Part shown: piece after piece, positions 48,835 through 53,418 of the stretch | Layout: each line of letters opens with the position of its first letter | How positions within the stretch are numbered: position 1 is the stretch's first letter | Assembly (NCBI RefSeq): GCF_007004665.1 | Contig: NZ_ML660056.1 | Location: 310,001-374,000 of the forward strand | Reading direction: 5' to 3' | Length of the DNA stretch: 64,000 nucleotides | From: Denitrobaculum tricleocarpae | GTDB lineage: Bacteria > Pseudomonadota > Alphaproteobacteria > Kiloniellales > Kiloniellaceae | Notes under the pieces: generated by a model | Told to the model about the DNA's origin: nothing | What the model saw: only the letters and a program-made list of their open reading frames with translations | Database searches by the model: none | Program-made: the position numbers and the translations under genes

Positions 48835-49270
48835 TTCCCAGATGCCCCTTGAACGAGTTTTAGCCTCAAGACTTTGGAGCCAGACTCACAAAAAAAAACA
48901 GGGGAGGCGCCGGGTGATTGACTTCTGCATACGGCGATCTTTTTGAGTTGCTTGAGTAACCCGCATTTTACCGAGCATAACGCGGCAACCTTTACGCAAA
49001 GTGCTAAGGCAGAAAAACTGCTCTCAAATTCCTCCGTTCACTCAAAATGATAGGTCTTTCAGCGAGAAAACGAAGAGAAATTGAGTTTCTGTCCCGTTTG
49101 TGGGCAAGTTTGTCTAAAATATACAACACTGCTTCTATGTGTATTTACTCTATCCGCTAATGTCTGAAGAAACACTCGGTTCGGGTCGCATAGAAAAACC
49201 CGCTCACCGCTGTACGCGATCCCAATCCAAAATGTCCTGAACGGCAGTGTCAAATCGAAAAACTATGGCT
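48835..49270. other. 436-base intergenic region
   Basis: No convincing gene. It lies upstream of the minus-strand 268-residue gene and 3' of the PEP-CTERM gene, and is more AT-rich than its neighbours, with an A run at 48890-48898. A 64-codon minus-strand frame (49059-49253) has no ribosome binding site and no known family. Confidence 0.4.
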
Positions 49271-49957
49271 TCAGATGCAGCGAAAATGGTCTCTCGCTGA
49301 CATCCTTGAGGCCATTGAGTTTCGCCGGCGCAAACCCGCTGCCGAAAGGCCGATCAAACCGAGACCAAACAAACTGAGAGTTGCAGGCTCGGGAACGGCA
49401 ACCGGATTGCTGTTGAGCGAGAAGAAGAGGTTCAGGTTCGAATTGCTGAAAACGCCGTTGTTGTTCCTGGAGAGACTGGATCCCCCCTGGTCCGCCAGCC
49501 AACCCCAGACCCGAAGATCATCGGAAACATCAGTGATCGATAGCCAGTAGCGTGTGTCCGCCTCAAGAAACAAGCCGGCGCCCAAGTCCGCCTCATAGTG
49601 GTAGACGAAGGAAAAATCACTATCCTGGGTTATCACGGGATCCAACGTGATTTGAAACAGCGGCGTGCTGGCCGGCCTCGATCCGCTGTGCGCATAAAAG
49701 CCGATTTCAAAGGTGGTACTGGGGAACACCTTGCCCATCCAGGTGAGCGAAGTCACCGTTGAGGCGGATGACAGGCGGAAGTCATCGAAAGCGGTTCTTT
49801 CGAAGTTGCTGTTAAAAGCCTTACCATCACTCGTGGCTGCATTCGTGTTTTTGGTTCCCGACGGGCCCTGTTCGTAAATGACGGTTGCCTTGGCATTTGA
49901 GATCGCAAGGGTCCCGACTAACATCAGGCCGGCCAGTACGGCCGAGAATAATTTCAT
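49271..49957 (-). CDS. PEP-CTERM sorting-domain protein
   Basis: A 228-residue exported protein. The N-terminal signal peptide (M-K-L-F-S-A-V-L-A-G-L-M-L-V-G-T-L-A) ends near A-K-A. The mature part is beta-rich, with Y-H-Y-E-A-D-L-G-A-G-L-F-L-E-A-D-T-R-Y-W. The C-terminus has V-P-E-P-A-T-L-S, a hydrophobic helix G-L-G-L-I-G-L-S-A-A-G and L-R-R-R, the PEP-CTERM signal recognised by an exosortase (EpsH). About 15 further residues follow the Arg cluster, which is longer than usual. No exosortase gene is in the window. ATG 49957 is preferred over the longer frame to 50047. Such proteins are usually linked to exopolysaccharide and cell aggregation. Confidence 0.9.
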   Translation of the reverse strand: MKLFSAVLAGLMLVGTLAISNAKATVIYEQGPSGTKNTNAATSDGKAFNSNFERTAFDDFRLSSASTVTSLTWMGKVFPSTTFEIGFYAHSGSRPASTPLFQITLDPVITQDSDFSFVYHYEADLGAGLFLEADTRYWLSITDVSDDLRVWGWLADQGGSSLSRNNNGVFSNSNLNLFFSLNSNPVAVPEPATLSLFGLGLIGLSAAGLRRRNSMASRMSARDHFRCI

Positions 49958-50113
49958 TACACCGATTCCCCATGGAGAAGTATTGTGTCGGCTCAAGTTG
50001 CGGCCGCATGCTATCGGGAATAGGCACGACACCCGTCGTGAAAGCACTGGAAATTTGTGGAAATCTTTACGGGGGGTTAGTCCTTGCGAGACAGGATTTG
50101 TCAGAGCAAAACC

Positions 50114-51121
50114 TCACTCGACCTTCCGTTCCGTGACTGTTGCGACGTTGTTCCGTGGCCTGCCTTTGGTGCATCTGCCACCCAGAATCTTGTTTAAGCG
50201 CTTACTGTCTTGAATGCTCAACCGGTCAACAGAGTTCATGCGGGCTCCGCTCAGCGTATCCATCAGCGTCCGCTCCAGAGCTTGCGACGGCGCGATATCC
50301 AGGCCGGCCAAAATGAGGTCTTCGACGATAGAACCCTCAAGTGGACTTGAGAGAGGTGCCGCTTTAACCGCCGTCCCTTTTGCTCCTGCGGCCGGCAGAC
50401 GTATCATCAAAACCCGGCTGATACTGGGATGAGGCATGTCCTCCTCCAATGACGCGCCAGCTTTGTGTCCGAACATAAAGTTCGCCGGCGTGTCCGGAGA
50501 ATAGAGATTAAAGTAAAGGTCGCTGCGCTGATCACGCTCACTGACGTCGATCCCGATCAAGCGGTTGCGCCGGGTCACCGCGCCGAAATACCGAAGTGGG
50601 ACCCTGTGAATGGACTCAATGTAGTGCGCGCGCATGGCTGAGTGCAGTTGCGCGCCGAGATCGAGCTGTAAGACGCCGCGGATCACCGGGTGACGGTCCT
50701 GGAAGGTCAGTGCGTGGCTGTAGCAGAGGTAAGTACCTTTCATGGTCTCCTGCCATCCCAGGCTGACTGTGCCTTCCTCGCCCGCATTCGGGTTTGCCCC
50801 CGGCTCGGCCCACTGCTGCAAGAAGCTGTCGACAGAGGCCCGATCGAGACGGTGGCCCGTCACGATCAAATCGGCAAACTGCTCAAGGCTGCAGGCCCCC
50901 AGAAATGCGGGCGACGCATCGAGCTCAAGCAACTGCGCCCAGGAAACATAGACCTGAGAAGCGCGCGGCGTACTTTTGCCCTGCATCCACTTGTAAAAGC
51001 TCTGCAGCTCAAAGCTGAGGCCCGTGCCATGCGCTCGAAGCTTCTGGTAAAGCTCCTTCGCTGTCCGGCAACGCAGAGCTATCCCAGTCAGCTTCAGCTT
51101 TTTGTCAAAGTCACGAACCAT
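50114..51121 (-). CDS. Uncharacterised protein with possible N-terminal helix-turn-helix
   Basis: A 335-residue protein from the ATG at 51121, supported by GAGGAAAG. The N-terminal 80 residues are helical. K-E-L-Y-Q-K-L-R-A-H-G followed by F-Y-K-W-M-Q-G-K-S-T-P-R resembles an XRE-type DNA-binding helix-turn-helix, though I am not certain. A beta-rich middle section carries the signal-like L-Q-L-D-L-G-A-Q-L and I-G-I-D-V-S-E-R-D-Q-R-S. No membrane helix is seen. The end is basic (G-R-C-T-K-G-R-P-R-N-N). It lies just upstream of the PEP-CTERM gene on the same strand, so a regulatory role for that gene is plausible but unproven. Confidence 0.7.
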   Translation of the reverse strand: MVRDFDKKLKLTGIALRCRTAKELYQKLRAHGTGLSFELQSFYKWMQGKSTPRASQVYVSWAQLLELDASPAFLGACSLEQFADLIVTGHRLDRASVDSFLQQWAEPGANPNAGEEGTVSLGWQETMKGTYLCYSHALTFQDRHPVIRGVLQLDLGAQLHSAMRAHYIESIHRVPLRYFGAVTRRNRLIGIDVSERDQRSDLYFNLYSPDTPANFMFGHKAGASLEEDMPHPSISRVLMIRLPAAGAKGTAVKAAPLSSPLEGSIVEDLILAGLDIAPSQALERTLMDTLSGARMNSVDRLSIQDSKRLNKILGGRCTKGRPRNNVATVTERKVE

Positions 51122-51660
51122 CTTTCCTCGATCTGCCTGGAGCAGTACCGGCAAGGCCGTCCGGCCTGCCCGTTTCTGAAGAAAGACAGTCGAGAGCTCA
51201 AATTTGAAGAGGAAACGGGTGTTTGTCCCTTATAGATGCGATTTTGTCCAAAACGTTATAACACCGGTTCGGTGTAAATCCCGGCACCATCACTCAAGCA
51301 TCGAATCGCCTGCCAGAATCGGACTGCCCTCCCCCGCGCATTTCTCGATGAGTGGTCGCTTGCATCTGTGCGGGGATCGGGTAGAGAGGCGATACATCGC
51401 GTCAGACCTGAAGTCTTACCTTTCGCTTTCACGAATACTTTATACACAACCCCCATAAGAACTGGGTTCTTCAGAACACACTATGATATGTTTATTTTCT
51501 GGTAATCAGTGGCGGGGGCCTGATTCGTCCTTTTGTGAAGCAGAAGCAGTGATGCTTCCGCCAAATAACGGCATATCCCAAAAAGCCAACGGTGAGAGAA
51601 AAAAACATCCCCATGCTGGGCAGGGTAGAAGCGTTTCGGCAGCGGTTTTGGAATAAAGTG
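51122..51660. other. Intergenic region upstream of the DISM-AraC gene
   Basis: No firm gene. AAGAAC-TGG-GTTCTT (51457-51471) is a small perfect inverted repeat followed by a further GAAC, a possible regulatory site. The start of the next gene is uncertain here: GTG 51592, ATG 51613 and ATG 51661 are all in frame. Confidence 0.45.
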
Positions 51661-53418
51661 ATGCCCGGGAAGGTCCTCTTCCTGGCAGCTTTTGTGTGTT
51701 TTTGTAGTGGGGTTTCCGGGGTTTGGGCGGATAACGGCCGTCCGGTCTGCCCTCCCGCAGAAGTTTCGGATTCGGCAGCAGGCGAACGGAACACACTGAC
51801 CCAGAAGCTCCAGGACCGGCTGAAGCCCCTATCGGCGGACTTTTTTCTGGATCCATCGGGACGCGTTCGACCTGACGATGTAACAGACCAGACTTTTGTT
51901 CCGGGCCACTGCATCGCCATTTTCGAAGCCCCGCTTCCGGATCAGGCTCTGTGGCTTCGGTTTACGCTCACGAATGAAGAGGACGAGGCAAAAACCTGGT
52001 TTGTTGCGTTCTTGGAATTCATCTACGACAGAGTCGTCTTGTTCGAAGAAAACGCCGACGGACTTGTGGAAAGGGCGTTGAACGGCCGCAGTCTTCCTGT
52101 AGAGGAGCGCGTAAACACTGCGGTCAAAACGGGCCTGCCGATCACCATCGGTCCAGATGTTACGAAAACCTTCTATCTTCAGATTACAGGGACATTCGCG
52201 CCAAGAATAACACCGGTCATCATGACGCCGGAACTCTTCCAGGACTGGACGATCCTGACGCTTATCATGACAGCCGTGTTCCTGGGGTATGTCGGCGCCA
52301 TTACGCTTTTCTGCGTCATTCTGTTTCGCCACGTCGAGGCACGCTTTTACCAATTCTACGCCATAAACATGGCCTGCTTTTTCATATTTTCCTTCATCTA
52401 CGATGGATGGCTCAGCCGTTTCCTGGATGTGACTCTGCCAGTGACGAGCGTCATGCCGTTTGCAGAGTCCATCGCCGGACTGGGCGTTCTGGCCAATATT
52501 CAGTACTGCCGCGTGCTCTTGAAGATCGACAGAAGTAGACCTGGTGAGTGGCGCCTTTTGTGGCTTTTGTCGGGTCTGACGCTCGTGACGACATGTCTGT
52601 CGGCAATTGATCCCTGGAGGTTATCCACGCCCCTGCATCTGACTTATTTTGTCTGCCCTCTGGCTCTTCTCGCCGTAGCGCTCAAAAGGGTCCGTGAAGG
52701 CCTGCCGCAGGCGACAGCCGTATCCGGTGCGCTCCTGTCACTCACCCTTGGCCTTTCGGTAGCCGTCTATTTCTTTGCCTTTCCGCTTGAGATCACGCGG
52801 GCCGCTTTTGCTTATGAGCTTATTCTGCTGCGGCCTATCACCTGGGGTTACTATCTCGCGATCATGGGAGAGACCACGTTTATGATGCTGGCGATTTCGA
52901 CCATGGTGAGGGCGACCCGAGAACAGGAGCAGGCGGCTTTGGCGGAGTCCGCGCTGCTGCGGCGTGACGTCACCGCGGCCGAGGCCAAACACGAGGAAAT
53001 TCTGAAGGTCGCCAACACACAGATTGAGGCTCTCAAAGCCAGTTTGCGCGACAACCCGGAACGAAAAACGATGCCGTCCGCGGAGCAACGCATGGCGGAC
53101 CAGGCGACCGAGTGTGTTCTTGATCATGTCTCCGAGGAGGGGTTTGGCGCCCGGGAACTGGCAGAAGCTCTGGGTATGAGCCAGAAAACTCTGGGCCGAC
53201 GCCTCAAGGAGACCCACGGATTGACGACGGCCGCATTTGTCCGCTCGATCCGCTTGAAATTTGCCCGCGATCTCATTCTGCTGCGTCAACATCATACGAT
53301 TACGGAAATCGCCTACGCGGCCGGTTTTTCCAGCGGAGGGCATTTCGCCAAGGTTTACCGCGAAGAGTTCGGCGAGACGCCGAGCGAAACCTTCAAGCTT
53401 CAACAGGAAGAGCAGTAG
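51661..53418 (+). CDS. Membrane-bound AraC-family regulator with 7TMR-DISM sensor
   Basis: A 585-residue protein from the ATG at 51661, which gives a clean signal peptide (M-P-G-K-V-L-F-L-A-A-F). A periplasmic beta-rich domain of about 130 residues (A-L-W-L-R-F-T-L-T-N-E-E-D-E-A-K-T-W) fits 7TMR-DISMED2. Seven membrane helices follow (V-F-L-G-Y-V-G-A-I-T-L-F through F-M-M-L-A-I-S-T-M), then a coiled coil (E-Q-E-Q-A-A-L-A-E-S through I-E-A-L-K-A-S-L). A C-terminal AraC helix-turn-helix is complete: L-A-E-A-L-G-M-S-Q-K-T-L-G-R-R, then I-T-E-I-A-Y-A-A-G-F-S-S-G-G-H-F-A-K-V-Y-R. Such DISM proteins usually end in a kinase or GGDEF domain. Starts at 51613 and 51592 (GTG) are also possible. Confidence 0.93.
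   Translation: MPGKVLFLAAFVCFCSGVSGVWADNGRPVCPPAEVSDSAAGERNTLTQKLQDRLKPLSADFFLDPSGRVRPDDVTDQTFVPGHCIAIFEAPLPDQALWLRFTLTNEEDEAKTWFVAFLEFIYDRVVLFEENADGLVERALNGRSLPVEERVNTAVKTGLPITIGPDVTKTFYLQITGTFAPRITPVIMTPELFQDWTILTLIMTAVFLGYVGAITLFCVILFRHVEARFYQFYAINMACFFIFSFIYDGWLSRFLDVTLPVTSVMPFAESIAGLGVLANIQYCRVLLKIDRSRPGEWRLLWLLSGLTLVTTCLSAIDPWRLSTPLHLTYFVCPLALLAVALKRVREGLPQATAVSGALLSLTLGLSVAVYFFAFPLEITRAAFAYELILLRPITWGYYLAIMGETTFMMLAISTMVRATREQEQAALAESALLRRDVTAAEAKHEEILKVANTQIEALKASLRDNPERKTMPSAEQRMADQATECVLDHVSEEGFGARELAEALGMSQKTLGRRLKETHGLTTAAFVRSIRLKFARDLILLRQHHTITEIAYAAGFSSGGHFAKVYREEFGETPSETFKLQQEEQ

Follow-up and report, generated by a model that had tools for sequence, protein, structure and literature searches.

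A DISM receptor joined to an AraC DNA-binding domain in Denitrobaculum tricleocarpae, a predicted membrane-tethered activator of exosortase-sorted surface-protein genes

The window (the whole 64,000-nucleotide stretch of the Denitrobaculum tricleocarpae genome analysed here) encodes a protein in which a DISM sensor, a seven-helix membrane domain and an AraC-type DNA-binding domain follow one another in a single chain. The gene and its parts are as follows.

51661..53418, forward strand: gene of the DISM-AraC regulator, 585 aa; the longest reading, from a GTG at 51592, has 608 aa
51661..51729, forward strand: signal peptide region MPGKVLFLAAFVCFCSGVSGVWA, predicted from a hydropathy peak of 2.1 and from conservation among orthologues
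51838..52197, forward strand: 7TMR-DISMED2 periplasmic sensor domain with a RetS-like fold (Pfam PF07696, E 3e-14; RetS 3jyb, Z 13.2)
52267..52785, forward strand: 7TMR-DISM_7TM membrane domain (Pfam PF07695 profile match, E 2e-9), with a last helix that extends to ~52908
52909..53049, forward strand: long cytoplasmic helix that continues the last membrane helix, a probable dimeric coiled coil (AlphaFold2 model, alignment)
53158..53397, forward strand: AraC-type DNA-binding domain, HTH_18, with two HTH units (Pfam, structure match, invariance of KTLGRR)

The ATG at 51661 is a likelier start than the GTG because it begins right at the signal peptide. In the numbering of the 608-aa reading, the sensor domain (PF07696) was identified at residues 83-202 (53.5 bits against a cut-off of 22), the membrane domain (PF07695) at residues 226-398 (38 bits against 29; 41 bits and E 5e-10 in a whole-genome profile search of its own genome) and HTH_18 at residues 523-602 (E 7e-22, 77.9 bits against 33.6). 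The HTH_AraC profile also exceeds its curated Pfam cut-off (E 3e-10). An AlphaFold2 model (10-sequence alignment, mean pLDDT 71.5, pTM 0.54) shows a beta sensor domain and membrane helices, then one unbroken helix (392-463) that is followed by a pair of HTH units. The modelled sensor aligns structurally with the periplasmic domain of RetS (Z 13.2 over 134 residues, rmsd 2.8), and the modelled C-terminus matches AraC-type structures with Z 14-15. A first-pass annotation, made from the sequence without database searches, had placed the DISM sensor, the membrane helices and the AraC domain in this order, with DISM coupled directly to a complete AraC helix-turn-helix. Profiles, model and structure matches all bear this out: the three Pfam domains that it named for a search (7TMR-DISMED2, 7TMR-DISM_7TM and HTH_18) score above their curated cut-offs, and the modelled helix runs towards the HTH units.

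DISM receptors are recognised by a 7TM domain and a DISMED extracellular domain, both of which are present here; a catalytic module is usual, not required. No Pfam match to a kinase, GGDEF, cyclase or phosphatase module was found in the regulator, and AraC HTH_18 stands in that place. We regard the protein as a variant of the DISM family rather than an outsider, because the family is named for its diverse modules. It also has the C-terminal two-HTH DNA-binding domain that defines AraC/XylS proteins, in which the recognition-helix segment KTLGRR is invariant among 14 relatives. Two periplasmic cysteines, Cys30 (51748) and Cys84 (51910), are found at matching alignment positions in 12 of the 14 relatives and are both missing in Roseobacter; they are a possible disulfide pair. 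The predicted 7TM region (52267-52785) aligns with the folds of human TMEM87A, WLS and SIDT (Z 8-11), which could reflect a shared fold or merely a common helical arrangement.

DISM-AraC genes were found in about 12 alphaproteobacterial genomes, from Kiloniellaceae/Pelagibius, a Minwuiaceae MAG, other MAGs and one Roseobacter. Full-length relatives of the window protein (type A) occur in three congeners, two of which have both types, in three Pelagibius-group genomes, the Minwuiaceae MAG, the MH-Pat MAG, Roseobacter sp. MH60115 and the alphaproteobacterial MAG bin.12. The Denitrobaculum tricleocarpae genome itself also has a paralogue on contig C7, type B, with 40% identity to type A. Orthologues at 90 to ~39% identity keep the architecture, and the fusion is therefore genuine; an assembly, reading-frame or frameshift artefact is ruled out. 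Alignment searches of 384 other sampled Alphaproteobacteria identified no further full-length relative, and none of 50 DISM proteins sampled from Pseudomonadota, a sample that leans to high-scoring ones, has an AraC domain (the commonest C-terminal end is GGDEF). As a positive control, the AraC profile used on this sample detects all ten members of the DISM-AraC family. The combination is thus uncommon, as the first-pass annotation had supposed, and the literature searched contains no study of a DISM-AraC protein. The architecture may exist in Bacteroidota and Spirochaetes, phyla outside the sampling. Plasmid carriage was considered and rejected, with no match among 72,556 plasmids. Also present in one congener (G001, L034:4543-4914, forward strand) is the remnant of another DISM-AraC gene, in which a signal peptide is fused to a partial AraC domain, followed by a stop; it has lost the sensor and the 7TM domain and has a short, divergently oriented PEP-CTERM remnant beside it.

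Comparison of the regions upstream of the regulators revealed a candidate operator, TTTGTCC-N14-TTTGTCC, or GGACAAA-N14-GGACAAA on the other strand. Within the window it lies among the following features.

51222..51249, reverse strand: predicted operator GGACAAA-N14-GGACAAA, an exact match, conserved upstream of orthologues and facing the divergent operon 51154-49271
51206..51208, reverse strand: promoter-like element, 14-16 nt past the operator when read towards the divergent operon, with the T at +42 invariant
50114..51154, reverse strand: gene for a conserved 346-aa protein, function unassigned, the first gene behind the operator, without a Pfam or NCBIfam match
49271..50047, reverse strand: gene for a PEP-CTERM (exosortase-sorted) protein, a predicted target in the same operon as the 346-aa gene
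49088..49115, reverse strand: second, degenerate operator-like site with two mismatches, facing the gene 48834-48028; its score alone is compatible with chance

This direct repeat has a 21-bp period and stays beside orthologues down to ~40% identity. It is exact upstream of type A in the window genome (G000), in the three congeners (G001, G002 and G003) and in the Minwuiaceae MAG, and upstream of the operon of a SulP gene and the DISM-AraC gene (SulP-DISM-AraC) in Roseobacter MH60115 (G662). The regulator copies of BBD, PL25a and MH-Pat adjoin a repeat with one or two mismatches. No recognisable repeat was found beside the bin.12 orthologue (L053), and the 400 bp upstream of the type-B gene in G000 contain no half-site. 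Read towards the target gene, the 37 sites collected give the consensus TGttcCATATTGGACAAA and then TTGCGCgCATATTGGACAAA, in which one half-site of ~17 bp (TGnnnCATATTGGACAAA) recurs at 21 bp. All 37 have a T at +42; the set includes orthologous sites, and its members are not all independent. Direct repeats of ~17-bp half-sites at 21 bp are the usual format of AraC-family sites. The repeat and the invariant T would fit an AraC-type activator site held at a fixed distance from the promoter. In column conservation downstream of the 37 operators, no GG/GC pair stands out at the sigma-54 -24/-12 spacing (GG-N10-GC).

The gene divergent to type A is a PEP-CTERM gene in G000, G002 and G003. One conserved gene, that of the 346-aa protein, intervenes in G000 and G002 (where the copy is 81% identical); it is missing from the G003 locus, and there the PEP-CTERM gene directly adjoins the operator. 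The Minwuiaceae MAG has two PEP-CTERM genes divergent to the regulator, and in MH-Pat the homologue there ends in a VPAPP-type tail. PEP-CTERM genes were not detectable in the three Pelagibius-group genomes, where the divergent neighbour codes for an RTX-repeat protein of very large size that includes a PPC domain (L044:1-7692, reverse strand; L045; L046), possibly the local target where PEP-CTERM is missing. In Roseobacter MH60115 and bin.12, a SulP-STAS-cNMP transporter gene precedes the regulator on the same strand. The GNAT and TPR genes neighbouring the regulator in the window were rejected as targets: they are convergent to it and lack a site.

A genome-wide search of G000 identified nine exact operators, against an expectation of ~0.02 at 60% GC; a control search with the reversed pattern returned none. 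Seven of the nine lie directly upstream of PEP-CTERM genes in the correct orientation (P ~1e-16), with the sorting motif 529-774 bp away, a placement that chance would give at 0.3% of positions. The window operator, before the 346-aa gene and the PEP-CTERM gene, is the eighth; the ninth stands before a gene homologous to the SulP gene adjoining DISM-AraC in Roseobacter. Exact sites facing PEP-CTERM genes number 5 of 9 in G001, 7 of 10 in G002 and 5 of 8 in G003, so that 24 of 36 sites pooled over the four genomes directly face such genes; of the remainder, two precede the 346-aa-PEP operon, three the SulP gene, and seven other genes or no clear gene. Only about a third of the 35 PEP-CTERM genes in G000 sit behind an exact site. 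Matches with two mismatches were as numerous genome-wide for the reversed-pattern control as for the true pattern, and counts were therefore restricted to exact sites or sites with conserved spacers. The first-pass annotation gave no target genes; a specific candidate regulon can now be offered.

SulP homologues far from the regulator carry the same operator in G000, G002 and G003. The SulP-STAS-cNMP transporter is thus found behind this operator in two distant lineages (L106, L138, L139, L052:5135-7546), which suggests that anion transport belongs to the regulon. A small conserved protein of ~80-95 aa (RYPSYKGPFSVRAVKIARVVSATG...) is also encoded behind the operator in G000 (L121, where the site has one to two mismatches) and in G003 (L144).

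Four exact sites were identified in Roseobacter MH60115, one before SulP-DISM-AraC and three before genes for VPLPA-CTERM-like secreted proteins (one tail above the NCBIfam cut-off, two below). Because these sorting tails differ from PEP-CTERM, the Roseobacter sites are a largely independent confirmation. Relatives that have PEP-CTERM genes and lack DISM-AraC (G016 with 5 such genes, G046 with 11, G047 with 6 and G054 with 6) contain no exact site. Thus, the motif follows the regulator and not the presence of PEP-CTERM. Among 54 other relatives there is a single exact match, in G053, with a spacer that does not fit, and among 384 other genomes of the class 15 have one or two matches and none has more than two. 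G660 and G661, with ~45-50 PEP-CTERM genes and a diverged DISM-AraC, have the operator essentially only beside the regulator. With hardly any distant sites in these two genomes, a broad regulon is not universal.

We consider it likely that the protein is a membrane-tethered one-component regulator with a RetS/NicD-like sensor, and predict that it activates promoters of exosortase-sorted surface proteins. The periplasmic DISMED2 domain would sense a signal, probably a glycan or sugar, and its state would pass through the 7TM domain and the dimeric helix to the cytoplasmic AraC domain. The two AraC domains of the dimer would then bind the two ~17-bp half-sites repeated at 21 bp, and the bound dimer would activate promoters of PEP-CTERM genes, or of VPLPA-CTERM-type genes in Roseobacter. 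A SulP-STAS-cNMP transporter and the divergent operon next to the regulator gene may be further activated targets. We infer activation rather than repression because the operator lies upstream of the fixed promoter-like element and not over it. A sugar ligand is favoured because NicD has a carbohydrate-binding DISMED2 domain (PMC8544897) and mucin glycans activate RetS, although LadS is activated by calcium, which it binds (PMC7695008). The names of several carriers point to algal, sponge or coral-associated isolates or MAGs, and glycan sensing would suit such organisms.

The operator may have another owner. Some other regulator could bind the GGACAAA repeat and run the PEP-CTERM regulon, with the DISM-AraC gene a mere member that binds elsewhere: the motif evidence is correlative and the true binder could be a different factor restricted to these genomes, the site beside the regulator is oriented to the divergent gene and not to the regulator, and betaproteobacterial PEP-CTERM regulation uses RpoN with PrsK/PrsR (PMC9850573). 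Such a binder seems rather unlikely, however, given that the repeat accompanies the regulator in Pelagibius relatives with the RTX neighbour in place of PEP-CTERM, precedes SulP-DISM-AraC in Roseobacter and is missing from PEP-CTERM-bearing relatives without DISM-AraC. The 21-bp spacing of ~17-bp half-sites also has the form generally known for AraC-family proteins. Ownership within the family could be divided differently, with type B on contig C7 running the PEP-CTERM regulon and type A controlling only its divergent operon. A pair of PEP-CTERM genes ~3 kb away from type B has two exact operators, and the least typical spacer belongs to the window operator. We consider this division unlikely, as the congener G001, with type A and without an intact type B, still has its nine exact sites, five of them before PEP-CTERM genes, and KTLGRR is invariant in both types. 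Because G001 keeps the full site set, type A is favoured as sufficient there; in G000, type B may share or divide the regulon with it.

A further question is whether the AraC part acts only once regulated proteolysis frees it from the membrane, for which there is general precedent among membrane transcription factors and, in the AlphaFold2 model, a low-confidence linker at residues 464-471. The modelled helix runs unbroken from the last transmembrane segment towards the AraC domain, as expected for a signal passed along it, and we consider release by proteolysis improbable. A tethered DISM-AraC protein that binds and activates is the reading that we prefer. In its widest form, which we put forward tentatively and at somewhat less than even confidence, a glycan-sensing DISM receptor would directly activate an exosortase regulon through an operator code common to PEP-CTERM genes of Kiloniellaceae and VPLPA-CTERM-type genes of Roseobacter. 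In that case, the cell could sense host glycans or the extracellular matrix and assemble its surface coat with neither kinase nor second messenger. The literature searched appears to contain no description of how exosortase (PEP-CTERM) genes are controlled in Alphaproteobacteria; the present prediction names a specific regulator, its operator and a list of targets. DISM receptors wired straight to DNA by a standard AraC domain would be a modular membrane-to-promoter sensor.

The protein has the DISMED2 sensor and DISM 7TM domain in common with RetS, LadS and NicD, and its predicted sensor fold matches that of RetS; the output of those proteins is a histidine kinase or GGDEF, whereas here it is an AraC DNA-binding domain. 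The unusual output pointed out in the first-pass annotation stands, with two qualifications: 7TMR-DISM with a C-terminal ChiS-family DNA-binding domain has been catalogued as an architecture, though not studied there (PMC8092284), and TfoS of Vibrio is membrane-bound, described as AraC-family and responsive to extracellular chitin oligosaccharides (PMC7564644). ChiS-family DISM proteins resemble the window protein in joining DISM to a C-terminal DNA-binding domain, but theirs is a cryptic HTH variant and not the canonical AraC HTH_18. TfoS, which governs chitin use and competence, has an HTCS-related periplasmic domain and no DISM module, whereas Pfam detected DISMED2 alone in the periplasmic part of the window protein and no HTCS-like sensor was found there. 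PEP-CTERM genes in some betaproteobacteria are controlled through RpoN, probably by PrsK/PrsR (PMC9850573). Both systems control PEP-CTERM genes (here by prediction), but that one combines two components with sigma-54, and this one is a one-component AraC protein with a GGACAAA direct repeat. AraC itself occupies araI1-I2, a pair of ~17-bp half-sites in direct repeat, spaced with a 21-bp period and located upstream of the promoter. The predicted operator has the same format with a different half-site sequence, and whereas AraC senses arabinose with a cytoplasmic domain, the sensor of the window regulator is a membrane receptor.
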